Assembly (NCBI GenBank): GCA_029263455.1
Contig: JAJCXM010000008.1
Span: forward strand, 744,001 to 808,000
Reading direction: 5' to 3'
Source of the DNA: Holophagae bacterium
GTDB taxonomy: Bacteria; Acidobacteriota; Holophagae; Acanthopleuribacterales; Acanthopleuribacteraceae
Length of the DNA stretch: 64,000 nt
The notes under the pieces are model-generated. The model was not told the origin of the DNA and searched no databases. It was given only the letters and a program-made list of their open reading frames with translations. Shown here one piece after another: positions 43,364 through 56,779 of this stretch. Each line of letters starts with the position of its first letter. Positions within the stretch are counted from its first letter, which is position 1. The position numbers and the translations under genes were made by a program.

Positions 43364-44322
43364 GCGTCAAAAACATCGCGTTAACTGTTGTGTTGGCGAT
43401 TGGTCTTTACGTTGCCTTCAGTTCCGTTTATGTAGTCAGCGAAGTGCAACAGATGATCATCACCCAATTTGGTAAACCCGTAGGAGAACCGATCACTAGC
43501 GCTGGCTTAAAAGTCAAAGTGCCCTTTATTCAAGAGGTTAACCCCATCGACAAACGTGTCTTGGAGTGGGACGGCAGTCCATCAGACATGCCGACCAAAG
43601 ACAAACTCTACATTTCAGTCGATATCTTTGCCCGCTGGCGAATTGTTGATCCTCTGCAGTACTTTCTGCGGCTCAGGGACGAACGCAGTGCCCAGTCGCG
43701 TTTGGACGATATCTTAGGCAGCGAGACCCGCAATGCGGTGGCTAAACACGAACTGATCGAGATCATTCGCACCACCAAAGATCGTGTGCCAATACGGGAA
43801 GGCGTCCTTCAAGAGGAAACGGCCAATAAAGAGTTCGGTTTCCTGGTGCCCATTCAAAAGGGGCGCAAATTAGTGGAACGCGAGATCTTCGAAGCCGCTG
43901 CTGAGAAAGTTGGCGTCTTTGGTATTGAGCTACTTGATATTCGCTTCAAGCGTATTAACTACAATGCATCCGTCCGGCCCAAAATCTACGATCGCATGAT
44001 CAGTGAGCGACGCCAAATTGCTGAGCGGTTCCTCTCGGAAGGACACGGCGAAGCCGCCCGTATTCGCGGTAACCGCGTTCGCGAACTCAACAAAATCCAA
44101 TCCGAGGCATATCGGGAAGTGGAAGAAATCCGTGGCTTGGCTGATGCTAAGGCCACCGAGGTCTATGCCAGTGCCTATAATCAAAGTCGAGAATCAGTGG
44201 AATTCTATGAGTTCACTCGCACCATGCAGGCGTACAAGGTGATGATTGACGGTCAAACCACACTGGTCCTCTCTACTGAAAGCGACCTTTTCAAGTTCTT
44301 GAAGGGCATGGGTCCCAACTAA
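43360..44322 (+). CDS. hflC: FtsH modulator HflC
   Basis: 320 residues. An N-terminal membrane helix (IALTVVLAIGLYVAFSSVYVV) is followed by the SPFH domain (EVQQMIITQFGKPVGEPITSAG; FARWRIVDPLQYFLRL) and a C-terminal coiled coil with SERRQIAERFLSEGHGEAARI, a characteristic HflC signature. The tail YEFTRTMQAYK is also typical. It shares a 4-base overlap with hflK, so the two subunits are made in similar amounts. Confidence 0.93.
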   Translation: MSVKNIALTVVLAIGLYVAFSSVYVVSEVQQMIITQFGKPVGEPITSAGLKVKVPFIQEVNPIDKRVLEWDGSPSDMPTKDKLYISVDIFARWRIVDPLQYFLRLRDERSAQSRLDDILGSETRNAVAKHELIEIIRTTKDRVPIREGVLQEETANKEFGFLVPIQKGRKLVEREIFEAAAEKVGVFGIELLDIRFKRINYNASVRPKIYDRMISERRQIAERFLSEGHGEAARIRGNRVRELNKIQSEAYREVEEIRGLADAKATEVYASAYNQSRESVEFYEFTRTMQAYKVMIDGQTTLVLSTESDLFKFLKGMGPN

Positions 44323-44782
44323 ATTCAGGGAATAAAGCCAATTCTTGAAGGGCGTTGGCCCTTGATTAATCGGCGGACTCAAGACCTTTAATGGTCAATT
44401 GAAATTGGGTACCTGAGCAAATATTTCTGAATCCCAAGTGATGCCACGCGGTGCTTTGCGCCGCGTGGCAGCGCTCCGTGTTAATTGTTTCGTCAGTGAT
44501 TTTTGTGTTTGAAATAAGGGCCTCTAAGACAAGTTCTATCAGCGGTTTGACAATAGAGACGAGGTCAGCAGAGAACTTAGGTAAACGTTTTCGATCTCAG
44601 ATTCGTCGTCGCAAACCGAGTCTGTGATCAAGGGTTCAACCGCTTTTTGCACGCGTTATCGAAACCTTAGAAGCCTATTACTCATAATCTGGACTAAATA
44701 ACCACTTATTGTGTTGCGCATTGATGGGTTGAAGATTTATCTTATAGGTAAGACGGAATAGAGAGTCAGGTAATCGGCTATT
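44323..44782. other. 460-base intergenic stretch with two hairpins
   Basis: No gene seen. AAGGGC-GTTG-GCCCTT (44348-44363), 25 bases after the hflC stop, is a likely end-of-operon hairpin without a T-tract. GCCACGCGG-N9-CCGCGTGGC (44443-44469) is a perfect 9-bp stem. The rnf promoter must lie in the right half; no good -35/-10 pair was found, though TTATCTTATAG near 44738-44748 is A/T-rich. The rnfB ATG lacks a strong ribosome site. Confidence 0.4.
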
Positions 44783-45643
44783 ATGTCTCAGTTGCTCGCC
44801 GCCATGCTCGTACTTGGGGGGATCACCCTGATCCTAGGGGTACTGCTCGCCTGGGCTAGTCGCGCATTTTATGTCTACGAAGATCCCAGACTCGATGTGA
44901 TTGACGGCATGTTGCCGCAAGCAAATTGCGGTGCATGCGGTCAGCCCGGATGCCGGGCGTTTGCCGAAGCTTTGTTAGCCCATACAACGGTTCCAGCTAA
45001 ATGTACGGTGAGTGATGAAGCAGGTCATCTCAGGATCGCGTCGTTTCTCAATATTGACGCTGGTCAGGCAGATCGCCATGTGGCCCGTCTCGCTTGTGCT
45101 GGCGGACTGAACGCCGCCTTTCAACATGCGGTTTACAAGGGATTGTCGACTTGCCGGGCGGCTGCAGCGGTTGGAGCCGGAGGAAAATCTTGTGCATGGG
45201 GCTGCCTGGGCGTCGGTGACTGCCAAGTCGCTTGCGATTTTGATGCGATTAAACTGAGTCAGTTCCGATTACCGATTGTTGATGAAAGTACTTGTACCGC
45301 GTGTGGGGATTGCGTCGAGATCTGCCCCAAAGATCTGTTTTCTTTGCAGCCTGTGGATGACAAGTTGTGGGTGGCCTGCAAGAGCCAAGAATCGGGTGAC
45401 GCAGTATTGGCGGTCTGTGAGGTCGGCTGCACGGCCTGCGGACGTTGCGCCATGGACGCACCACACGGACTCATCCGCATGGAGCAAGAACTGCCCGTTG
45501 TTCAAAGTCGGAACCATGTGCGCCAACCCATTGAACGTTGCCCTACGGGGTCAATCGTCTGGATTGGACGCAATGGTCCCGAAACAGGACTTGATGCACC
45601 GAAACATAGCCGGAAGGAAGCCCTTCCGTTGGCACCTCTTTAG
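44783..45643 (+). CDS. rnfB: Ion-translocating Rnf complex subunit RnfB
   Basis: 286 residues. The N-terminal membrane helix (AAMLVLGGITLILGVLLAWAS) is followed by the 4Fe-4S entry domain with ANCGACGQPGCRAFAEAL (residues ~50-67), Cys in CAWGCLGVGDCQVAC, and ferredoxin clusters in STCTACGDCVEICPKDLF and GCTACGRCAMDAPHG. RnfB is the port by which ferredoxin delivers electrons to the membrane complex. The last ~45 residues are a family-typical C-terminal extension. It is followed 19 bases later by the giant oxidoreductase. Confidence 0.93.
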   Translation: MSQLLAAMLVLGGITLILGVLLAWASRAFYVYEDPRLDVIDGMLPQANCGACGQPGCRAFAEALLAHTTVPAKCTVSDEAGHLRIASFLNIDAGQADRHVARLACAGGLNAAFQHAVYKGLSTCRAAAAVGAGGKSCAWGCLGVGDCQVACDFDAIKLSQFRLPIVDESTCTACGDCVEICPKDLFSLQPVDDKLWVACKSQESGDAVLAVCEVGCTACGRCAMDAPHGLIRMEQELPVVQSRNHVRQPIERCPTGSIVWIGRNGPETGLDAPKHSRKEALPLAPL

Positions 45644-45662
45644 ATCGAAAGGAACCAGCACC

Positions 45663-48600
45663 ATGAAGTCGAAACATGACGCGAAATATCCGGGGACCCG
45701 AGCTGCCGTTGATGGCAACACCGCGGTCATAATGTGTGAGCGTGAGTCTACCGATGCCGCCGGCGCATATCCGATTACGCCATCGACTCAGATGGGTGAG
45801 TACTTCGCCGAGGCAGCGGCCCAGGGCCACTTGAACATTTCGCAGCGACCCTTGATCTTCATCGAACCAGAAGGCGAACACGCCGCAGCCGCTGTCACTG
45901 CAGGCTTGTCAATGACGGGACTGCGCGCTTCCAACTTCTCGTCAGGCCAGGGCATCGCCTATATGCATGAGTCGCTTTATGCAGCGGTGGGGAAACGCTT
46001 AACCTATGTGCTCAACATCGGCGCTCGCGCAATGACGAAATCCACCCTAAACGTTCATGCCGGACACGACGATTACCATTGTGTGGACGACACAGGTTTC
46101 TTTCAGCTGTTTGCCAAGAATGCGCAACACGCTTGTGATTTGAACATCATTGCCCATCGCATTGCTGAATTGTCATTGACGCCGGGTATCGTGGCTCAGG
46201 ACGGTTTTTTGACAACTCACTTGATCGAATCAGTCATGTTACCTGAGCGCGACATGATTTTAGAGTACTTAGGTAAGCCCGATGACCTGATCGACTGCCC
46301 AACACCCGCACAACGAATCATATACGGTGCAAAGCGTCGTCGTATTCCTGAGCTTTGGAGTGTGGATAACCCAGTAATGGCGGGTGTCGTTCAAAACCAA
46401 GATGCCTATATGCAAAGTGTGGCGTCGCAGCGTCCCTTCTTTTTTGATCATATTCGTGAGTTAACCGAATCCAGTTTTGCTGAATTCTCGCGCTTGACGG
46501 GACGCCAATACGAACGCGTTGAGACCTATCGCTGTGACGACGCCGATTATTTGATTCTCGGTCAAGGAAGTCTGATTCCGTCGGCCGAAGAGGTTGCCGA
46601 TTACTTGCGTGCAACACGCAAGATCAAGGTGGGTGTGGTCAATATGGTGATGTTCCGCCCATTCCCAGGCGACTTAATCACTCACTTCCTCAAAGGTCGC
46701 AAAGGTGTGGCGGTATTGGAACGTCTCGACCAGCCACTGGCCGAAGATCTGCCCCTCATTCGCGAAATTCGCGCAGCCATATCTAAGTCATTGGAAAACG
46801 GGCGCGCGGAAAAGGCACAGTTGCCTTACCCAAATTATGAAAGCTACAAGAAGATGACGGACATGCCCGCCCTTTACTCCGGTTCGTTTGGACTAGGCAG
46901 TCGTGACTTGCAGCCTGAAGGCATCATTGCTGCTATCGAGAACATGTTGCCCGATGGCGCACATCGTAAGCATTTTTATCTTTCCATTGATTTCATCCGC
47001 CCCAAGTCGTTTACGCCGAAACAAGAAATACATCAGCAGTCCATTATTGATGCCTACCCGAAGATAAGTGAACTCGCCATTCGTGGCAGTGAAAATCCGA
47101 ATCTTATGCCCAATGGCAGCATCACCGTTCGCTTCCATTCCATTGGAGGTTGGGGCGCCATTACGACTGGTAAGAACCTCGCGATGACACTCTTTGAATT
47201 ATTGGGTTACCACGTCAAAGCTAATCCGAAATATGGTTCCGAAAAGAAGGGCCAACCCACCACCTACTATCTATCCGCGTCACCGCAACCCATCAAAATA
47301 AACTGCGAATACTTTTTCGTGGATGCGGTCTTGTCGCCAGACCCCAATGTCTTCAAACACACCAATGCGGTGGCTGGCCTCAAGAAGGGTGGCGTCTTCA
47401 TCATTCAAAGTGATTTGGGATCACCCGAAGCGGTTTGGCGATCGATTCCTAGCCACTATCAAAAATTGATCAAAGACCAGCAAATCAAACTCCATTACAT
47501 CGACGCCTTTAAAGTAGCCCGTGAAGAGGCCACCGACTCCGATTTGCAATTACGTATGCAAGGCAATGTCTTCCAAGGTGCGTTTTTTGCGGTAAGTGAT
47601 GTCTGCGAGCGAGCAGGCCTCAATGAATCCAGTCTATTCCAAGCGATCCGCCAACAGCTCGATCATAAATTCGGGTCTAAAGGTGCTCGCGTGGTTGAGG
47701 ACAACATGAGAGTGGTACGCAGAGGATTCGATGAGGTTCGCGCCATTGGCGAATTAGATGTGTCAGCTGTGACAGAAATCTCACACCCTCCATTACCTGA
47801 GATGGTAAGGCTATTGCCAGCCAGCGCTGATGCCTCCACCGACGTCCACCGCTTTTGGGAGCAAACCGGCTCTTTCTACATTTCAGGCAAGGGCTCAGAC
47901 AATCTGGCAGATCCGTTCATCAGCATGAGTTTGATACCAGCCTCCACCGGCCTGTTCCGCGACATGACTGGCATTCGCTTTCAACATCCGGAATGGATAC
48001 CCGAGAATTGTACGGCTTGCGGCAAGTGTTACACCGTATGCCCCGACACCGCTATTCCAGGTCTGGTCAGTGAGGTCAGTGGCATCATGGATACCGTTTT
48101 GAAACGCACAAAGAAACGGGGTGTTGCGCTTCCAGAACTGCAGAAAACAGCGCGCTCCGTCGAGCGACGAATACGAATTCTGACTGCGGAAGCGGGCAAT
48201 GGAGTCGACGCCCGGTCGCTCATCCTTGAAGCGGTCGATGTTGAGGGCAGGGAAGGTGGATGCAAACAATCGCTTCAAGAAATTAAAAGCGAGTTAGCCC
48301 ATTTCAAATTTGCCTTGACGCGCCCCTACTTCAGTATCCCTGAAAAGCGGGAGCCTGGCTCTGGCGGACTATTGAGCATCACCGTCAATCCCTATACATG
48401 CAAGGGCTGTATGGAATGCGTTCAGGTTTGTGACGATGACGCCCTGCGTCCGATGCCACAGACCGAGGCTTCGGTCGCGCGGTTACGGGAAGACTGGTCG
48501 TTCTGGTTAGATTTGCCGACCACGCCGAAACACCTCATCCGAGTGGATGACTTGGAGAAGGGCATTGGCGCTTTGGAAACCATCTTGTTGGACAAGAAAA

Positions 48601-50531
48601 ACTACTTAGCGCTGAGTAGTGGAGACGGGGCCTGTCTTGGATGTTCAGAAAAGACGGCCGTCCACCTATTCGTGGCTACGGTTGAGGCGCTCATGCAACC
48701 CCGTGTGGCCAAGCATGTTAGCTATCTGAACGATCTCATCGAGAGACTGGAACGGCATGTCCAACTCAAGCTCACTAGTACTTTGGATCTCTCTGATCCA
48801 GATGCTATTGCCAGAGTCGCCGATGGAGCTAGCGACCACGACCTGACACTCGCCGAAATTGCGGCATCCACGCAACAAACTGCCAAAACACCGCCAGTCG
48901 ATCCGCAATGGTTAAAACGCTGCAGTCGTTGGATCGCTGATCTCAAAGCATTGCGAACAAAGTACACCCAAGGCACTACCGGTCAAGGCCGAAGTTCCAT
49001 GGGTATTATCAATGCCACCGGGTGTAGTTCGGTGTGGGGTAGTACCTATCCCTTCAATCCATACCCTTTCCCTTGGGCCAACCACCTGTTTCAAGACAGC
49101 GCCTCCATGGCCATGGGTGTGTTCGAGGGTCATATGGCAAAAATGGCCGGCGGCTTTACGCTGATCCGCAAGGTGGAGCTCGAACTCAAAGAAGGTTTCC
49201 GGCCAGAACGTCACCAGGACGCGTTGACCTATTTCACATGGCGTGACTTCAGCGACGATGAATTCTCGCTTTGTCCGCCAGTGGTAGCGATTGGAGGCGA
49301 CGGTGCCATGTACGATATCGGTTTCCAAAACCTCAGTCGGGCACTCATGTCCGGTAAACCCATCAAAATTTTGGTGCTGGATACGCAGGTCTACTCCAAT
49401 ACGGGCGGTCAAGCCTGTACCTCCGGATTCCATGGTCAGGTCTCTGATATGGCCCAATTCGGGAAGGCCATTAAAGGCAAGCAGGAGATACGTAAGGAGA
49501 TTGGTTTGATTGCCATGGCCCATCGCACAGCGTACGTGCTGCAGAGCACCATCGCTCATTCCAACCACATGATTGAGGGCTTCATCCACGGGTTGAACAC
49601 CAAACGACCGGCACTATTCAATATCTACACATCCTGCCAGCCGGAACACGGGATTGGTGACGATGTAGGGGCGCTCCAAGCAAAGCTTGCTGTGCAGTCT
49701 AGAGCTTACCCATTGTTCAGTTATGACCCGGACAAGGGGCCTCGACCCGAAGAAGGACTCGATCTAGAAGGAAACCCTGAGATGGGCGAAGACTGGCCGC
49801 AATTCGAGTTGAGCTTTCGTGAACACGGACGAGAGAAGAAGATGTCGATTGCCATGACATTCGCCGATTTCGCCGTCACCGAGGGTCGGTTCCGCAAGCA
49901 TTTCAGATTTGCGCCACGGGACACATGGACTGAAGCAATGGTTCCGCTGCACGTGTTTCTTGTCGACGATGATCGAACCGGAAAGTTCCCGTTCATCTGG
50001 GCGGTCGACCCCAACGGCAATCTGCAACGAGTGTTGGTGTCGCTGGTGATGGTCACGGCCTGCGAAGAGCGCCGAGATTTCTGGACCATGCTGCGAGCGA
50101 TTGCTAAGGAAGGGGAACCCGAAGATTCGACTGAAAACGTGGTTGATCGCGTGCGGCGAGACACGTTCAAACAGCTCACTGACGGGCTTTGGCGCTTACT
50201 AGACGGCGACAACCCTGCGCCGGCTGCGAGCCCGTCGGAACAATCGGCCAATAGCGCGGAGCCTGCTGATTCAAGTGAGGACTACCTCGCACCCTGGTTA
50301 GAAACGGCGGAGTGCACGTCGTGCGATGAATGCATCAATATCAATCCCCAGATCTTCGCGTACAACGAGGCCGGCAAGGCCTACATCATCAATCCGAAAG
50401 GCGGTCCTTACAAGGATATAGTCAAGGCCGCTGAGAAGTGTACCGCGCAGGTGATCCATCCCGGACTACCCGTCGATGGTCATAAGCCTGAGATCAAGGC
50501 ACTGATCGCCCGTGCCAGTAAATACAACTGA
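45663..50531 (+). CDS. nifJ: Pyruvate:ferredoxin oxidoreductase, oversized, with C-terminal ferredoxin domain
   Basis: 1622 residues, against about 1170-1200 for normal NifJ. Domains in order: N-terminal pyrimidine-binding domain (AGAYPITPSTQMGEYF), domain II, gamma domain (GGWGAITTGKNLAM; NPKYGSEKKGQPTTYYLSAS), ferredoxin domain with CTACGKCYTVCPDTAIP and, about 110 residues later, CKGCMECVQVCDDDAL. Next come the proximal-cluster segment (ACLGCSEKTA; NATGCSSVWGS), the TPP domain (GGDGAMYDIGFQN; QVYSNTGGQ) and a C-terminal [4Fe-4S] module (ECTSCDECI ... KCTAQV). The second ferredoxin motif lacks the usual Pro. It oxidises a 2-oxoacid with CoA, reducing ferredoxin; pyruvate is inferred. AAGGAAC precedes the ATG at 45663. 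Confidence 0.9.
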   Translation: MKSKHDAKYPGTRAAVDGNTAVIMCERESTDAAGAYPITPSTQMGEYFAEAAAQGHLNISQRPLIFIEPEGEHAAAAVTAGLSMTGLRASNFSSGQGIAYMHESLYAAVGKRLTYVLNIGARAMTKSTLNVHAGHDDYHCVDDTGFFQLFAKNAQHACDLNIIAHRIAELSLTPGIVAQDGFLTTHLIESVMLPERDMILEYLGKPDDLIDCPTPAQRIIYGAKRRRIPELWSVDNPVMAGVVQNQDAYMQSVASQRPFFFDHIRELTESSFAEFSRLTGRQYERVETYRCDDADYLILGQGSLIPSAEEVADYLRATRKIKVGVVNMVMFRPFPGDLITHFLKGRKGVAVLERLDQPLAEDLPLIREIRAAISKSLENGRAEKAQLPYPNYESYKKMTDMPALYSGSFGLGSRDLQPEGIIAAIENMLPDGAHRKHFYLSIDFIRPKSFTPKQEIHQQSIIDAYPKISELAIRGSENPNLMPNGSITVRFHSIGGWGAITTGKNLAMTLFELLGYHVKANPKYGSEKKGQPTTYYLSASPQPIKINCEYFFVDAVLSPDPNVFKHTNAVAGLKKGGVFIIQSDLGSPEAVWRSIPSHYQKLIKDQQIKLHYIDAFKVAREEATDSDLQLRMQGNVFQGAFFAVSDVCERAGLNESSLFQAIRQQLDHKFGSKGARVVEDNMRVVRRGFDEVRAIGELDVSAVTEISHPPLPEMVRLLPASADASTDVHRFWEQTGSFYISGKGSDNLADPFISMSLIPASTGLFRDMTGIRFQHPEWIPENCTACGKCYTVCPDTAIPGLVSEVSGIMDTVLKRTKKRGVALPELQKTARSVERRIRILTAEAGNGVDARSLILEAVDVEGREGGCKQSLQEIKSELAHFKFALTRPYFSIPEKREPGSGGLLSITVNPYTCKGCMECVQVCDDDALRPMPQTEASVARLREDWSFWLDLPTTPKHLIRVDDLEKGIGALETILLDKKNYLALSSGDGACLGCSEKTAVHLFVATVEALMQPRVAKHVSYLNDLIERLERHVQLKLTSTLDLSDPDAIARVADGASDHDLTLAEIAASTQQTAKTPPVDPQWLKRCSRWIADLKALRTKYTQGTTGQGRSSMGIINATGCSSVWGSTYPFNPYPFPWANHLFQDSASMAMGVFEGHMAKMAGGFTLIRKVELELKEGFRPERHQDALTYFTWRDFSDDEFSLCPPVVAIGGDGAMYDIGFQNLSRALMSGKPIKILVLDTQVYSNTGGQACTSGFHGQVSDMAQFGKAIKGKQEIRKEIGLIAMAHRTAYVLQSTIAHSNHMIEGFIHGLNTKRPALFNIYTSCQPEHGIGDDVGALQAKLAVQSRAYPLFSYDPDKGPRPEEGLDLEGNPEMGEDWPQFELSFREHGREKKMSIAMTFADFAVTEGRFRKHFRFAPRDTWTEAMVPLHVFLVDDDRTGKFPFIWAVDPNGNLQRVLVSLVMVTACEERRDFWTMLRAIAKEGEPEDSTENVVDRVRRDTFKQLTDGLWRLLDGDNPAPAASPSEQSANSAEPADSSEDYLAPWLETAECTSCDECININPQIFAYNEAGKAYIINPKGGPYKDIVKAAEKCTAQVIHPGLPVDGHKPEIKALIARASKYN

Positions 50532-50537
50532 GGCGTT

Positions 50538-51836
50538 ATGCTTGCTACTTTTCGTCACGGAATCCATCCTCCAAGCCATAAGACCGCAGCGGGCTCTGCC
50601 ATCAAACGCATGGCTTTTGCGGAAGAATTATCGGTACCCTTGGGACAGCATATTGGGTCGCCGGCTCGTCCACTGGTCCGTGAAGGAGAGCAGGTGGTAC
50701 GCGGGCAAATGATCGCAGAGGCCGATTCATTTGTATCGGCCTGCATTCATGCACCCGTCACCGGAACCGTGTCCAGCATTGGTTGGCTGCCCACGCCACA
50801 AGGAAACCGGGTCCGCGGAATTCGAATCAAATCAGAGCGCGGGGCAAGCCAGGATCAAATGGCTTTTGAACCGCATCCAATTTTGGATTCCGGCGAAGAT
50901 TGGATGCGTGCGGTATCTCGTAGCGGAATTGTCGGGCTCGGCGGAGCCGCATTCCCCACCCACGTCAAATTGAAGGTGCCAAAAGGCCGCCAAATCGACA
51001 CGCTCGTGGTGAACGGAGCAGAATGCGAACCCTATCTCACCGCCGATCACCGCGTCATGTTGGAATGGACCCAAGATATATTGAACGGTGCCAAGCGGAT
51101 TGCGACTGTAATAGGAGCCAAAAAGATCTTGGTTGGGATCGAGGCCAATAAATTCGACGCATTTCAGCACCTGAAAGAATCGGCTGATGGTGATGTTGCG
51201 ATTGAGTTGGTGAAAGTGAAATACCCGCAGGGTGCGGAGAAGATGCTGATCCACGCACTTTTAGATCGAAAAGTACCGGCAGGTGGTTTACCGATGGATG
51301 TGGGTGTGGTGGTATCCAATGTTCAGACCGCAGCCATGATTGAACGTCTGGTAGTCAAGGGACTGGGACTTGTAGAACGGGTGCTTACCATCGCCGGTGA
51401 TGCGGTTGAACGGCCCGGAAACTATTTGGTTCCAATTGGTACCACCATCCGCGACGCACTCGACTTTGTGGGGCTCAAATCAACCTGTGATCGAGTGGTA
51501 CTCGGTGGCCCAATGATGGGTCAGGCGATTGCCGACCTTTCGCTTCCTGTCACTAAAGGAACGGGCGGAATACTTGCCCTGAGTCAGAGCCATCACCGCT
51601 CTGTGCAAGCGTGTATACGTTGTGGCCATTGCATAGAGGTCTGCCCCATGTCACTCAACCCGGCCTTGCTGGGTCGGTTAGCTAGGGTAGGAGCTCACAA
51701 AGAGTTAGCCCAGAACAACCTCAAAGATTGCTTTGAATGCGGATGCTGCGCCTTCGTCTGCCCGTCCCATATCCCGCTCGTTCAACTCTATCGTCAAGCC
51801 AAACTGAATGCGCGAAAAAGGGCAGTTGTAGGATGA
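50538..51836 (+). CDS. rnfC: Rnf complex subunit RnfC
   Basis: 432 residues. The N-terminal barrel (PLGQHIGSPARPLVREGEQVVRGQMIAEAD) leads to an NADH-binding part (GLGGAAFPTHVKLKVP; NGAECEPYLTADHRVM) and two ferredoxin clusters (CIRCGHCIEVCPMSLNP and CFECGCCAFVCPSHIP). RnfC binds NAD+/NADH and carries FMN and 4Fe-4S clusters on the cytoplasmic side. It begins 6 bases after the oxidoreductase stop, with GAGG before the ATG, and overlaps rnfD. The C-terminal extension of enterobacterial RnfC is absent. Confidence 0.93.
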   Translation: MLATFRHGIHPPSHKTAAGSAIKRMAFAEELSVPLGQHIGSPARPLVREGEQVVRGQMIAEADSFVSACIHAPVTGTVSSIGWLPTPQGNRVRGIRIKSERGASQDQMAFEPHPILDSGEDWMRAVSRSGIVGLGGAAFPTHVKLKVPKGRQIDTLVVNGAECEPYLTADHRVMLEWTQDILNGAKRIATVIGAKKILVGIEANKFDAFQHLKESADGDVAIELVKVKYPQGAEKMLIHALLDRKVPAGGLPMDVGVVVSNVQTAAMIERLVVKGLGLVERVLTIAGDAVERPGNYLVPIGTTIRDALDFVGLKSTCDRVVLGGPMMGQAIADLSLPVTKGTGGILALSQSHHRSVQACIRCGHCIEVCPMSLNPALLGRLARVGAHKELAQNNLKDCFECGCCAFVCPSHIPLVQLYRQAKLNARKRAVVG

Positions 51837-52840
51837 AGTTCACTGCCGCACTCACACTGGAAGGGTCGCCTCACATGCGATCGGGCGCAACGGCGTCCGC
51901 AATCATGTGGCAAGTAAATCTCGCGCTGGTTCCGGCCTTGGGTTGGGGGATCTGGAGTTTTGGTATTTCGGCGCTGGGTTTGGTGCTGGTCACGGTAACT
52001 GCATCGGTTGCAACTGAATGGCTGATTACCAAGTGGCAGGGTAAGAGCCCCTGCATCAGCGACGGTTCGGTCGTCCTGACCGGACTCTTATTGGCGATGT
52101 GCTTGCCGCCCGCCTTACCTTATTGGATGGCAGTATGCGGTGCGGTATTCGCGGTAGGCATTGGCAAGCACGCTTTTGGTGGGCTGGGTCAAAACGTGTT
52201 CAACCCTGCGTTGGTGGGTCGAGCGATGTTGCAAGCGGCATTTCCATCCGCATTAACCACATGGACGATGCCCTTTCAGTTGGATCGCTTCACGCAATTC
52301 CACCAAGCTTCCATGACTCGGCCGCTGGCCTCCGCCATAGTCGACGGCGTTTCTAGTGCGACACCTCTGGGCGCAATGAAATTCGACGGTGTAACTACCG
52401 ACGCTATGCAGCTACTAGTGGGATCGGTCTCCGGCAGTCTCGGCGAAACCTCGAGTTGGTTGATTGTGGTGGGAGGTATCTATCTCGCGTTGCGCCATAT
52501 GCTCAATTGGAGAATTCCTGTCTCGATCCTGCTTGTGGTCGCTCTCTTAACCACTGTCTTTCACATCTGGCAGCCCGATTCGTACCCCACGGCTGGTTTT
52601 ATGGTCGGGTCGGGTGGGTTGATGTTGGGCGCCTGGTTCATGGCGACCGACATGGTGACATCACCGGTAACAGCCAACGGTGTGTGGTTATTCGGCGCAA
52701 TCATCGCGTGTCTGGTGGTTGCCATTCGTTTTTGGGGCGGTCTACCCGAGGGTGTCATGTATGCCATCCTGCTGGCCAACGCCATGGTTCCACTGATCGA
52801 TCGCTTTACCCAACCACGTGTGTTTGGGAGGCGTTCATGA
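51833..52840 (+). CDS. rnfD: Rnf complex subunit RnfD
   Basis: 335 residues with about nine membrane segments. The covalent-FMN site is seen in DGVSSATPLGAMKF, equivalent to the S(G/S)ATPL motif with the Thr flavinylated in relatives. SPHMRSGATASAIMW is the conserved N-terminal region. RnfD binds FMN and forms part of the ion path. The ATG at 51833 overlaps the rnfC stop (ATGA), and the gene overlaps rnfG by 4 bases. RnfD is flavinylated by an ApbE enzyme, which is not in this window. Confidence 0.93.
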   Translation: MKFTAALTLEGSPHMRSGATASAIMWQVNLALVPALGWGIWSFGISALGLVLVTVTASVATEWLITKWQGKSPCISDGSVVLTGLLLAMCLPPALPYWMAVCGAVFAVGIGKHAFGGLGQNVFNPALVGRAMLQAAFPSALTTWTMPFQLDRFTQFHQASMTRPLASAIVDGVSSATPLGAMKFDGVTTDAMQLLVGSVSGSLGETSSWLIVVGGIYLALRHMLNWRIPVSILLVVALLTTVFHIWQPDSYPTAGFMVGSGGLMLGAWFMATDMVTSPVTANGVWLFGAIIACLVVAIRFWGGLPEGVMYAILLANAMVPLIDRFTQPRVFGRRS

Positions 52841-53439
52841 AAACGGCAAGCGGCGTTCGGCTAGTAACCACGCTGGCAACACTAGGCGCTGCATGCGCCC
52901 TCATCCTGTCGTCGGTGTCTTGGGCGACCTCATCACGCATCGAAGAAAACCAAGCCGCTTACCTAAGGAAATCCGTACTCAGAGTAATTCCCGGCGCGGT
53001 CAGCGAAACGCCTCTTAAATTGGCAGATACATCCATCTTCGCCACGTACAATGATCGCGGTGATTTCGTGGCATACGCGATTGTGGCTGTGGGGCAAGGC
53101 TTCCAGGACACGATCACGCTTGTTTATGGATACAACCCCAACACCCAGAAGTTAACCGGTTTCCGGGTGTTGGCGAGCCGCGAAACGCCCGGACTTGGTG
53201 ACAAAATTGAGAAGGACGACCATTTTCAGCAGGCCTTTGCCGGGCAGCCAGTGAATGTAGCCGATGGTGCGCTCGAACACCCATTAGTGCTGGTTAAGCC
53301 AGGTAGCGGCTCAAGTAATTGGGAAGTCGACGCGATTTCTGGCGCAACCATTAGTTCACGAGCGGTGACTGCGGCCATTAGTGATAGTGCACAACTATGG
53401 ATACCCCTTTTGCATCGGAGGTACCTTGATGAGCGTTGA
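52837..53439 (+). CDS. rnfG: Rnf complex subunit RnfG
   Basis: 200 residues, one N-terminal membrane segment (VTTLATLGAACALILSSVSWA) and a periplasmic FMN-binding domain. The flavinylation motif is SGATISSRAV, with Thr171 as the expected covalent site. TLVYGYNPNTQKLTGF and RETPGLGDKI are conserved. It passes electrons between RnfD and the A/E subunits. Its 3' end overlaps rnfE by 11 bases. Length is as usual. Confidence 0.92.
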   Translation: MKTASGVRLVTTLATLGAACALILSSVSWATSSRIEENQAAYLRKSVLRVIPGAVSETPLKLADTSIFATYNDRGDFVAYAIVAVGQGFQDTITLVYGYNPNTQKLTGFRVLASRETPGLGDKIEKDDHFQQAFAGQPVNVADGALEHPLVLVKPGSGSSNWEVDAISGATISSRAVTAAISDSAQLWIPLLHRRYLDER

Positions 53440-54076
53440 CTCCGGCCAAGTGTTTACGAAAGGGATTTGGCAGGAAAACCCTGTGTTCGTGCAGGTTTTG
53501 GGTATGTGTCCTGTATTGGCGGTCTCCAATACCGCGACCAATAGTTTGGCCATGGGATTAGCAACTGCATTTGTCTTGGTGATGTCGTCCACGTTGGTGT
53601 CATGGCTTCGCCCGGTCATCCCTCGCCAGATTCGCATTGCGAGTTACATCTTGATTATTGCCACTTTTGTGACAGCGGTGGACTATGGGATACAGGCCGT
53701 AAGCGTCGAACTTCACAAGGCTCTAGGTGCCTTCATCTCATTGATCGTGGTGAATTGCATCATTCTCGGACGGGCTGAGGCGTTTGCCTCCAAGCACGGT
53801 GTTTGGGATGCCATCAAGGACGCGGCCGGCATGGGTCTCGGGTTTACGATTGGCCTCTTCTGTCTTGGTGGCGTAAGGGAATTGTTAGGGGCAGGCTCCT
53901 TGTTTGGCTACGCGGTTTTCGGCGATCGCTTCGAGCCGTGGATCTTAATGATCCTTCCTCCAGGTGGCTTCTTCACTATGGCCGCATGGCTTTTTGTGAT
54001 CAACCTCAGGAAGGAAGCTCGAATCGCGTCCCTGAAGGCTCGCAAGACTTTGGAGGAGACTCGCCATGCCACATGA
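53429..54076 (+). CDS. rnfE: Rnf complex subunit RnfE
   Basis: 215 residues with six membrane segments; homologous to NqrD. FTKGIWQENPVFVQVLGMCPVLAVSN carries the conserved Cys that helps bind the intramembrane iron centre, and VVNCIILGRAEAFA is also conserved, with a second Cys. GGAGGTACC precedes the ATG at 53429. It overlaps rnfA by 11 bases. Confidence 0.92.
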   Translation: MSVDSGQVFTKGIWQENPVFVQVLGMCPVLAVSNTATNSLAMGLATAFVLVMSSTLVSWLRPVIPRQIRIASYILIIATFVTAVDYGIQAVSVELHKALGAFISLIVVNCIILGRAEAFASKHGVWDAIKDAAGMGLGFTIGLFCLGGVRELLGAGSLFGYAVFGDRFEPWILMILPPGGFFTMAAWLFVINLRKEARIASLKARKTLEETRHAT

Positions 54077-54653
54077 TTCATTAAGCGGCGTCTTCATCGA
54101 CGCCTGTCTTATCAACAATTTCATCCTGGCCTACTTCCTGGGGATCTGCCCCTTTATCGGCGTAACCAAAGAAGTTAAGACCAGTGCTCGCATGGGCTTG
54201 GCTGTCATGTTCGTCATGTTGGTCAGTTCTATGTGTGCGTATGGCGTCAATGGCCTTTTGCTATGGCTTGGCGTTCCCTTCCTGCAACTGATCTCGTTCA
54301 TTGTTGTAATTGCCTCGTCAGTCCAATTGGTTGAGATGGTGATAAAAAGATACAGTCCGGCTTTGTTTCGAAGTCTTGGCATCTTTCTTCCTCTGATCAC
54401 CACCAACTGCGCGATCTTGGCCGTGGCTCTGTTTCAGACACAACGTGGCTACGGTTTTTTGCAATGTCTGGCTTACGCGTTGGGCGCGGGAACTGGGTTC
54501 CTCTTAGTGCTTGTACTGATGGCCAGTGTCCGCCAGAACCTCGACTACGCCGATGTCCCATCATCGATCAAAGGAACCGTGATGGCGTTCATTGTGGCAG
54601 GAATCTTGTCGGTTGCCTTCATGGGTTTCGCCGGCATGGGAGGTGCCCGGTGA
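54066..54653 (+). CDS. rnfA: Rnf complex subunit RnfA
   Basis: 195 residues, six membrane segments; homologous to NqrE. FIDACLINNFILAYFLGICPFIGV carries the conserved Cys (GICPF), and LITTNCAILAVAL the second Cys. RnfA and RnfE together hold an iron-sulfur centre in the membrane. Its stop overlaps the GTG of the next gene (GTGA). It completes the full set of six Rnf subunits B, C, D, G, E, A, all in one run. Confidence 0.93.
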   Translation: MPHDSLSGVFIDACLINNFILAYFLGICPFIGVTKEVKTSARMGLAVMFVMLVSSMCAYGVNGLLLWLGVPFLQLISFIVVIASSVQLVEMVIKRYSPALFRSLGIFLPLITTNCAILAVALFQTQRGYGFLQCLAYALGAGTGFLLVLVLMASVRQNLDYADVPSSIKGTVMAFIVAGILSVAFMGFAGMGGAR

Positions 54654-54805
54654 CCACCGTGATTGGGGTCTTTGCAACCGCTCTGTTGGCGGTGATATAT
54701 GGTCTTTTGCTTTGCGAATCAGGATTTGAGTCTAAAGGGGGCGGGTGCGGCGCATGCGCGCCAACGTGCGATCGAAAGGATGTGTGTTATGAATCTGAAG
54801 GCTGA
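54650..54805 (+). CDS. 51-residue Cys-rich single-pass membrane protein in the rnf operon
   Basis: 51 residues: a membrane helix (residues ~4-21, VIGVFATALLAVIYGLLL) followed by a Gly/Cys tail with cysteines at 22, 33, 36, 40 and 46 (CGAC-x3-C-x5-C). Size and topology recall NqrM, the small protein that delivers iron for the NqrD/E centre of Na+-NQR; RnfA/E are homologous to NqrD/E. No sequence identity is claimed. The GTG overlaps the rnfA stop (GTGA), with GGGAGG upstream, and the gene overlaps the next by 17 bases, so it is firmly in the operon. Confidence 0.7.
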   Translation: MTTVIGVFATALLAVIYGLLLCESGFESKGGGCGACAPTCDRKDVCYESEG

Positions 54806-55274
54806 AGAGTTCTATCAGTTCGCCATCAAGATCGAGACCGAAGGTCGCGAGTTCTACGAACGCTTGGCCGACCGTTTTCCTGGCGAAATGGCAACTCTTT
54901 TTCGAGATTTAGCCGCCCAGGAAGGTGAACACCAACACCTTTTTGAGAAAATGGCTAAGAGTATCAATCGCTATACACCCAGTGAATTTTTTTCGGACGA
55001 ATATTTCTCTTACCTTCATGCGCTTACCGAATCAGATATCTTCCATAAAGACAGAGTTAAAGAAGAAATTACGGAACTGCACGACGCCTTGGGTGCCGTG
55101 GACTTTGCGATACGGCGCGAATGTGAATCCATCTTTTACTACGATGCGTTGGCAATATTGGTTAATCCGACCGACATGCATCTATTGGAATCCGTCATTG
55201 ACGAGGAGCGAGGGCACGTGGCGCAGCTAGAAGCCATCAAAAATAACATCGAATCTAAAAGGAGGGAGCCATGA
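54789..55274 (+). CDS. Rubrerythrin-like diiron protein
   Basis: 161 residues, four-helix ferritin-like. Iron ligands are suggested by EGREFYERLA (Glu), the ExxH in QEGEHQHLF, RRECESIFYYD (Glu) and the ExxH in DEERGHVAQLE. The C-terminal rubredoxin domain of classical rubrerythrin is absent. These proteins reduce peroxide or act as electron acceptors and iron buffers. AAAGGA precedes the ATG at 54789. It shares a 4-base overlap with the flavoprotein, so it is translated with it. Confidence 0.82.
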   Translation: MNLKAEEFYQFAIKIETEGREFYERLADRFPGEMATLFRDLAAQEGEHQHLFEKMAKSINRYTPSEFFSDEYFSYLHALTESDIFHKDRVKEEITELHDALGAVDFAIRRECESIFYYDALAILVNPTDMHLLESVIDEERGHVAQLEAIKNNIESKRREP

Positions 55275-56128
55275 AGTTACAGCGGGACTACGATACACAA
55301 AATCCGACTCCAGCAATCGTAACTATGAACGTGCGACTGACACCTGCTGAATCAGTTGAGGACGTGAGGGAATTGACACTCAGAATCGACCGGTTGCCAT
55401 ACCCTTGCGCCGCTGGGCAGTCCATTGGGGTTTTAGTTAGTGGACCCCACGATTTTGGCAATGAGCACCATATGCGGCTTTACACGATTGCTGAATGTCG
55501 GATTGCTGGCGGACGCAGCTTTATCGATATTTGCGTACGTCGTTGTGACTATTTGGATCCAATCAACGGGGAACGTTATCCAGGTATCGCGTCTCACTAT
55601 CTCTGTGACCAAACGGTCGGTGGAACAGTGACACTGGTTGGTCCCTACCCCATGCCATTTGATGTTCCCGACGATGTTACGTCAAACATAATTATGATTG
55701 GGGTGGGTACAGGGATTGCGCCTTTTCGTGCCTTCATCAAACGCATCTACGACGAAATAGGTGGCTGGAAAGGCCAGGTGCGGCTGTTTTACGGGGCCCA
55801 GACTGGGCTTGAAATGCTGTATATGAATGACAAGAAATGCGACCTTACTAACTACTTTGACCAGGACACTTTTCGCGCGTTTGAGGCAGTTAGTCCGAGG
55901 CCCCACATGGGCGACGAAATATCACTGGATAAAAGCATCGAAGAACGAGGTGAGGAAGTGTGGTCGTTGCTCAATCAGCCGAATACTTATGTCTACGTTG
56001 CGGGTCTGAGTCGTATCAAGGAAGTGTTGGAGCGCGCTATGACAAAAATCGCAGGTGGTGAAAAGAAATGGCGACTCAAGAAACGAGAGTTAATTGCCGG
56101 GGAACGATGGTCAGAGCTCCTTTACTGA
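55271..56128 (+). CDS. Ferredoxin-NAD(P) reductase-like flavoprotein
   Basis: 285 residues. FAD domain with RLYTIAE (the RxYS/T FAD motif), a central Gly-Cys region and FAD phosphate contacts. NAD(P) domain with GVGTGIAPFRAFI, FYGAQTGLEML and YVAGLSRIKEVLE; the C-terminal Tyr of GERWSELLY is like that of plant-type FNR. It would move electrons between ferredoxin and NAD(P)H in the cytoplasm; the direction and nucleotide preference cannot be told. It is the last gene of the rnf operon, 4 bases overlapping the diiron protein. Confidence 0.85.
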   Translation: MKLQRDYDTQNPTPAIVTMNVRLTPAESVEDVRELTLRIDRLPYPCAAGQSIGVLVSGPHDFGNEHHMRLYTIAECRIAGGRSFIDICVRRCDYLDPINGERYPGIASHYLCDQTVGGTVTLVGPYPMPFDVPDDVTSNIIMIGVGTGIAPFRAFIKRIYDEIGGWKGQVRLFYGAQTGLEMLYMNDKKCDLTNYFDQDTFRAFEAVSPRPHMGDEISLDKSIEERGEEVWSLLNQPNTYVYVAGLSRIKEVLERAMTKIAGGEKKWRLKKRELIAGERWSELLY

Positions 56129-56236
56129 CGGCATTGATGAAGTTGGTAAATTATCCCCATTCAGTTTGATCATTCATCGCTTTGCATAAGGTTGAGAGCC
56201 TGGCGCGTTAAAAAGAAATAAGGCTTTTGTTGTCGT

Positions 56237-56779
56237 CTATGTGCCAAACGCTTTGGTCTGCTGTACCTCATAGGCAGCTTTTGTGAGCTGATAAACTAGA
56301 CTTTCTCGGCCGCTGGCATCGGCTCTGGTGCCAATGCGAATGCCGCCGATCTTTTCGACAGCACGCTGAGAGCGAACGTTCTGTGGCCCAACTAGAAAGA
56401 CCACACGATCTACGAATTTAAAGGCGTGGGTTAGCATGAGCCGCTTCATCTCGGCGTTATAGACACCGCCCCAATAGGATCGCGCCAAGAAGGTCCAGCC
56501 AATCTCAACTTCGCTCTTTGCTTCCGAGTAGCCGTGATATCGCGATGAGCCGATGATGCGTTGGCTCGTTATGTCGATGGCAATCAGCGCGCCCCCAGAT
56601 TCAAGCGACTCTTTGAAGAGCGATTGAAAAACGGCCTCTTCATGGCGGTCTGTATTGGGGTGTTGCTGCCAGATAAGCGGATCGGCAGCTACCGCGTAAA
56701 GTCCATCATTGTCTTGCGCGCAAATGGGCCTGAGTTCTATGAGCTGACCCTTCAGGATTGGTTGATAATCGAACGGCAT
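56237..56779 (-). CDS. RimJ/RimL-type GNAT acetyltransferase
   Basis: 180 residues. IELRPICAQDNDGLYAVAADPLIW is the typical N-terminal opening, SEVEIGWTFLARSYWGGVYNAEMKRLML the beta4-helix3 acetyl-CoA segment, and NVRSQRAVEKIGGIRIG the beta6 end. It resembles RimJ/RimL enzymes that acetylate ribosomal protein N termini or small amines; the substrate is unknown. AAAGGA lies 7 bases before the ATG. It converges with the rnf operon. Confidence 0.85.
   Translation of the reverse strand: MPFDYQPILKGQLIELRPICAQDNDGLYAVAADPLIWQQHPNTDRHEEAVFQSLFKESLESGGALIAIDITSQRIIGSSRYHGYSEAKSEVEIGWTFLARSYWGGVYNAEMKRLMLTHAFKFVDRVVFLVGPQNVRSQRAVEKIGGIRIGTRADASGRESLVYQLTKAAYEVQQTKAFGT

Follow-up and report, generated by a model that had tools for sequence, protein, structure and literature searches.

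A gene cluster in a Holophagae bacterium encodes a complete Rnf complex together with a 2-oxoacid:ferredoxin oxidoreductase (PFOR) and a ferredoxin-NADP reductase (FNR). We consider it probable that the PFOR is the dedicated electron donor of this Rnf, the whole forming a 2-oxoacid-driven ion pump in one transcription unit. The cluster lies in a stretch of 64,000 nucleotides, here called the window (positions 744001 to 808000 of contig C8; assembly of 6.2 Mb in 40 contigs). Its gene order is not a product of chance; it recurs in many other genomes, and the locus belongs to a known, little-studied arrangement. Added here are the breadth of this arrangement, its one-clade history, the ferredoxin domain fused to the PFOR, a small gene that had been missed, and a sister operon with thiamine-dead PFOR remnants.

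Gene content and junctions of the window locus

Gene calls and profile searches gave the order rnfB-PFOR-rnfC-rnfD-rnfG-rnfE-rnfA-small Cys-rich gene-rubrerythrin-like gene-FNR, all on the plus strand between positions 44783 and 56128 (Table 1). A preliminary description of this DNA had reported a complete rnf operon with a 2-oxoacid:ferredoxin oxidoreductase gene between rnfB and rnfC. Both observations hold: RnfB, RnfC, RnfD, RnfG, RnfE, and RnfA are encoded together and each matches its own family, which identifies the set as Rnf, and the domains of the PFOR agree with its assignment. The short junctions noted earlier were also recovered, with neighbors overlapping or standing no more than 19 bases apart (in order from rnfB to FNR, +19, +6, −4, −4, −11, −11, −4, −17, and −4 bases, where plus denotes a gap and minus an overlap). 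At the distal end, the diiron protein was correctly recognized, the "reductase-like flavoprotein" is more precisely a plant/cyanobacterial-type FNR, and the small gene behind rnfA had been overlooked. The likely start of the rubrerythrin-like gene is 54789, rather than the first ATG at 54699.

Table 1. Genes of the PFOR-Rnf-FNR cluster, in window coordinates
Feature	Position	Strand	Basis
rnfB, Fe-S electron-input subunit, 286 aa	44783-45643	+	phmmer vs C. tetanomorphum RnfB 7zc6_B, E 1.2e-48; PF04060 FeS + 4Fe-4S domains
PFOR (2-oxoacid:ferredoxin oxidoreductase), 1622 aa	45663-50531	+	Pfam domains; PDB matches 6cin, 1b0p
rnfC, NADH/FMN + Fe-S subunit, 432 aa	50538-51836	+	TIGR01945, 498 bits
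rnfD, membrane flavoprotein, 335 aa	51833-52840	+	TIGR01946, 318 bits; PF03116, E 1.3e-109; SSATPL flavinylation-type motif
rnfG, FMN-binding subunit, 200 aa	52837-53439	+	PF04205; TIGR01947, 95 bits, slightly below cut-off of 102; SGATIS motif
rnfE, membrane subunit, 215 aa	53429-54076	+	TIGR01948, 236 bits
rnfA, membrane subunit, 195 aa	54066-54653	+	TIGR01943, 229 bits
Small single-helix membrane protein, Cys-rich tail, 51 aa, GTG start	54650-54805	+	Unnamed family; no Pfam or NCBIfam match
Rubrerythrin/ferritin-like diiron protein, 161 aa	54789-55274	+	PF02915, E 4e-12; 1vjx, E 2.5e-11
Plant/cyanobacterial-type ferredoxin-NADP reductase (FNR), 285 aa	55271-56128	+	8hfq PetH, E 4.2e-36; NCBIfam PetH models

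A 460-base intergenic stretch lies 5' of rnfB, the preceding gene stopping at position 44322. A consensus scan of positions 44300 to 56400 returned no excess of promoters (3 versus 9.5 expected) or terminators (11 versus 12.8 expected) and thus gave no pointer to a split among rnfB, PFOR, and rnfC, although this argues only weakly. The whole PFOR-Rnf-FNR cluster is probably carried on one transcript.

Identity of the Rnf complex

Profile matches of RnfB and RnfG were weaker than those of RnfC, RnfD, RnfE, and RnfA, yet specific. Reading the sequences by eye, we located SSATPL in RnfD and SGATIS in RnfG, which we take to be threonine flavinylation motifs, as well as the cysteines of what is presumably the membrane [2Fe-2S] site (GICP/TNCA in RnfA and GMCP/VNCI in RnfE). 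ApbE flavin transferases are encoded in the same genome. The complex is predicted to be a ferredoxin:NAD+ oxidoreductase with ion transport. The closest solved relatives of the window RnfB belong to the Rnf of Clostridium tetanomorphum (PDB entry 7zc6) and to a second solved Rnf (9eri), which have the same six subunits; unlike these, the window operon also encodes PFOR and FNR.

The membrane core is homologous to that of Na+-NQR (nqrABCDEF), and in both systems the final membrane-subunit gene (rnfA or nqrE) is followed by one of the FNR family. However, the window locus retains rnfB and an Fe-S RnfC, and its FNR is PetH-like rather than NqrF. Of the marks of Na+-NQR that we looked for, the window set shows none: rnfB has not been lost, NqrF is absent, and its proteins do not group with those of NQR. 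The FNR gene behind rnfA was also considered as a sign of an RNF-NQR intermediate by descent. This was rejected because the subunit tree described below places these sets with RNF and the FNR is PetH-like; the likeness is kept as a parallel.

The PFOR and its fused ferredoxin domain

The PFOR combines POR_N, PFOR_II, POR, two Fer4 motifs, and TPP_C in one chain (Pfam). Domain order, catalytic residues, and three [4Fe-4S] clusters are shared with canonical PFOR (6cin and 1b0p); the window protein differs in being about 400 residues longer, through inserts and a single-cluster ferredoxin domain fused to its C terminus (roughly residues 1548 to 1602). We aligned it with 72 rnfC-linked homologues, among which a few may be one locus counted twice, and with stand-alone PFORs (eight rows, one being a cut copy of the window protein). 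Thr39, Glu72, Arg122, Asp1213, and Asn1246, whose catalytic roles are taken over from the D. africanus enzyme, were conserved in linked and stand-alone PFORs, as were four cysteines of the proximal cluster and eight of domain V; only one or two rows depart from this, by a gap or an unread letter. Since these residues and cysteines are intact, the PFOR should be catalytically active.

Among the rnfC-linked homologues, 16 cluster cysteines were conserved. The four extra cysteines of the C-terminal ferredoxin domain occurred in all linked proteins (72/72) and in none of the canonical PFORs compared. An exclusive association of this tail with Rnf-linked PFORs was nevertheless rejected, as PFORs of about 55% identity with no rnf nearby carry the same tail. 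Against the NCBI equivalog TIGR02176, the window PFOR scored 412 bits (cut-off, 911), the mark of a divergent subfamily; pyruvate is therefore not assured as the substrate, which is most likely a 2-oxoacid and, among these, pyruvate.

Genes between rnfA and the end of the cluster

The GTG start of the small gene overlaps the rnfA stop, and its product combines a single membrane helix with a Cys-rich tail. Most related clusters encode a single-helix protein of 50 to 75 residues between rnfA and FNR, in which VQxxW and a CxxCxC...C tail often come after the helix. Searches of Pfam and NCBIfam (including NqrM, the DUF539 family) gave no family match for it. Its identification as NqrM, which NQR needs for its membrane [2Fe-2S] site, was rejected on this ground and retained as a functional analogy only. 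A maturation or anchoring factor is the likely identity of the protein; by that analogy, the maturation role is a fair guess and no more.

The FNR has the FAD and NADP domains of PetH-like, plant-type reductases, though its scores fall below the NCBI equivalog cut-offs, and it is predicted to tie the module to NADP(H). An FNR gene followed rnfA in 48 of the 50 loci with enough room (among the best 80 of at least 562 relatives). By contrast, tblastn recovered the rubrerythrin-like gene in the genus-mate (L033) only, and it was absent elsewhere among the compared loci; the gene thus lies outside the conserved core. This bears on a reading in which the rubrerythrin-like protein and FNR would spend ferredoxin electrons on peroxide removal or on keeping regulators reduced, much as Rsx of E. 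coli reduces SoxR. The diiron protein encoded in the cluster would suit such an oxygen- or redox-stress module, but with its gene confined to the genus and the core set conserved without it, we regard this reading as very improbable.

Distribution and prior description of the arrangement

A scan of GTDB genomes yielded at least 562 confirmed PFOR relatives, of which the best 80 loci were read; the counts in this paragraph refer to these 80. Ten loci ended before rnfC could be seen. In 69 of the 70 with enough contig, rnfC stood directly behind PFOR (within 1.5 kb), and the carriers span Bacteroidota, Pseudomonadota, Planctomycetota, Myxococcota, Acidobacteriota, and others. The gene rnfB lay directly upstream of PFOR in 40 loci and behind FNR in 23, the latter in Bacteroidota and some others, such as Methylotuvimicrobium. 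Among 199 sampled genomes of the window's phylum, only 3 (the window genome, its genus-mate, and G236) had a close PFOR, each with rnf adjoining; more distant large PFORs had no rnf in the fetched stretches. The single locus without rnfC (L048:10001-14902) is gammaproteobacterial and encodes a PFOR 66% identical to that of the window, with no rnf in the 10 kb upstream or the 4.9 kb fetched downstream. Loss or transfer of PFOR alone is possible in this case.

These positions also bear on whether PFOR, Rnf, and FNR are simply co-regulated neighbors that draw on a common pool of soluble ferredoxin and stay clustered for the sake of expression, with no physical complex. In fermenters, PFOR and Rnf are related through just such a pool, and the many clusters (mostly of Bacteroidota) with rnfB behind FNR indicate that PFOR need not lie between rnfB and rnfC. 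On the other hand, the near-invariant adjacency of PFOR and rnfC, the PFOR's own ferredoxin domain, and the retention of thiamine-dead PFOR derivatives around rnfB in the sister operon lead us to consider co-regulation alone rather unlikely.

The preliminary description took rnf clusters usually to lack nifJ. This is fair for rnf in general, since eight rnfABCDGE-type sets, E. coli included, had no PFOR in the fetched stretch. The implied novelty of the rnfB-nifJ-rnfC order was not borne out: the order is widespread, as the adjacency counts above show, and it is published. A 2014 paper places PFOR between rnfB2 and rnfC2 in the rnf2 operon of the Solemya velum gill symbiont, and its authors already propose pyruvate as the electron donor of that Rnf (PMC4287430). 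Likened by that description, the two operons share the rnfBCDGEA order with PFOR after rnfB; in the window, PFOR likewise stands between rnfB and rnfC, followed by rnfD, rnfG, rnfE, and rnfA. The FNR, the fused ferredoxin domain, and the small Cys-rich gene are window features that the accessible text does not mention for rnf2 (PMC4287430). A literature search for further descriptions of PFOR within an rnf order returned this 2014 paper only; earlier or other descriptions may exist.

Joint history of PFOR, Rnf, and FNR

In a tree of RnfD, RnfE, and RnfA, with SH-aLRT support (a quick method), 26 PFOR-linked Rnf sets from many phyla fell on one side of a branch (support, 89). NQR formed a separate branch (support, 100), and rnfABCDGE-type sets fell elsewhere. 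Within the PFOR-linked clade, Gammaproteobacteria were intermixed with Bacteroidota and others, which indicates that the module has moved horizontally. PFOR distances tracked those of RnfB, RnfC, RnfD, RnfE, RnfA, and FNR (Mantel r, 0.82 to 0.92; 0 of 999 permutations as high). Such joint divergence is as expected for a set inherited together. One Calditrichales locus (L042:406-20234) holds two adjacent rnf sets, one with and one without PFOR, that lie on different branches of the tree.

Proposed function and physiological setting

In the proposed scheme, the PFOR would oxidize a 2-oxoacid (most likely pyruvate) with CoA, and its three [4Fe-4S] clusters would relay the electrons to the ferredoxin domain fused to it. 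From there, or by way of free ferredoxin, they would reach RnfB; RnfC would reduce NAD+ while RnfD, RnfE, and RnfA export Na+ or H+. The FNR could direct the same low-potential electrons to NADPH, or NADPH could feed the system. Run in reverse, the ion gradient would yield reduced ferredoxin. Directly established are the genes present, the intactness of catalytic and cluster residues, the conserved linkage, and the joint divergence; from these we infer the single transcript, any direct docking of PFOR on Rnf, and the direction, substrate, and ion. The preliminary description had proposed a single unit joining the oxidation of 2-oxoacids to ferredoxin, Rnf, and NAD(P), in keeping with the genes present, their junctions, and the conservation of the set as a whole.

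A dedicated PFOR-Rnf module is favored by the intact residues, the extra C-terminal cysteines, the rnfC adjacency, the single clade, the joint divergence, the remnants in the sister operon, and the presence of ApbE. Counting against it, PFOR normally works with soluble ferredoxin, the linkage could be co-regulation only, the same ferredoxin tail occurs in PFORs without rnf nearby, L048 lacks rnf, and the PFOR falls below its equivalog cut-off. So do the host's heme-copper oxidases and other oxoacid dehydrogenases, which bear on when the module would be used. The genome also encodes NQR. As a prediction from gene content, the functional link between PFOR and Rnf is well supported.

The host is likely facultative or aerobic, and the module thus probably serves energy conservation at low oxygen or redox balance rather than nitrogen fixation. 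A role in nitrogen fixation was rejected, as family matches in a NifH search of the genome covered at most about 70 of 271 positions and no full NifH was present. In a respiring cell, the gradient might instead drive NADH electrons through Rnf to ferredoxin, with the PFOR acting as a pyruvate synthase or the ferredoxin feeding biosynthesis, and the FNR balancing NADPH. The NQR and heme-copper oxidases could supply the gradient, several carriers (Algoriphagus, Flagellimonas, and Methylotuvimicrobium) are presumably aerobic, and Azotobacter Rnf1 runs in reverse. Set against this, the genome has no nitrogenase, no other ferredoxin-consuming pathway was identified in it, and direction cannot be read from sequence; we consider reverse operation unlikely, though well short of implausible.

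Rnf is usually assumed to use ferredoxin from a common pool. A PFOR-Rnf-FNR set that is widespread and inherited jointly, often in genomes with NQR as well, would mean that many bacteria dedicate an oxoacid-oxidizing enzyme to one Rnf. If PFOR and Rnf dock, a 2-oxoacid could power the ion pump without free ferredoxin, limiting the leak of low-potential electrons to oxygen. In genome-based prediction of metabolism, PFOR, Rnf, and FNR genes should be read together.

A sister operon with thiamine-dead PFOR remnants

More surprising than the window locus itself is a sister operon, korA-korB-X-rnfB-Y-rnfC-D-G-E-A, found at L037, L038, L039, L236, L237, L238, L239, and L241 (L238 and L239 being cut by contig ends). 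Its carriers are relatives of the window genome, other families of the same phylum, and one Phycisphaerae genome; the window genome has no such operon, and the one further POR-family enzyme it encodes is a stand-alone korAB (contig 5). X and Y, about 740 to 1500 aa long, derive from PFOR, whose profile matches X over its C-terminal part and Y over most of its length. Neither retains the thiamine motif (GDG...NTGG) or the cysteines of the proximal cluster. The ferredoxin cysteines are kept in all X proteins (9/9), and both Fe-S motifs are kept in 5/7 Y proteins. In the RnfD, RnfE, and RnfA tree, the Rnf of this type falls outside the PFOR-linked clade.

Because the thiamine-dead X and Y retain Fe-S motifs beside Rnf, with KorAB adjacent, an electron wire appears to be the part that evolution keeps. 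On the simplest reading, the Fe-S parts of PFOR would constitute a wire into Rnf. A stronger version, which we advance tentatively and hold less probable than a dedicated donor, makes the PFOR a built-on electron-input arm of Rnf, with the pump driven directly by the 2-oxoacid; in the sister operon, this arm would be split into two thiamine-dead remnants serving only to pass electrons from KorAB to Rnf. Among the nine X proteins, that of G177 is encoded with korAB and with rnf absent nearby. The locus L240:9054-14067 reads korA-korB-X with no rnf in the fetched 20 kb; X may thus work apart from Rnf.
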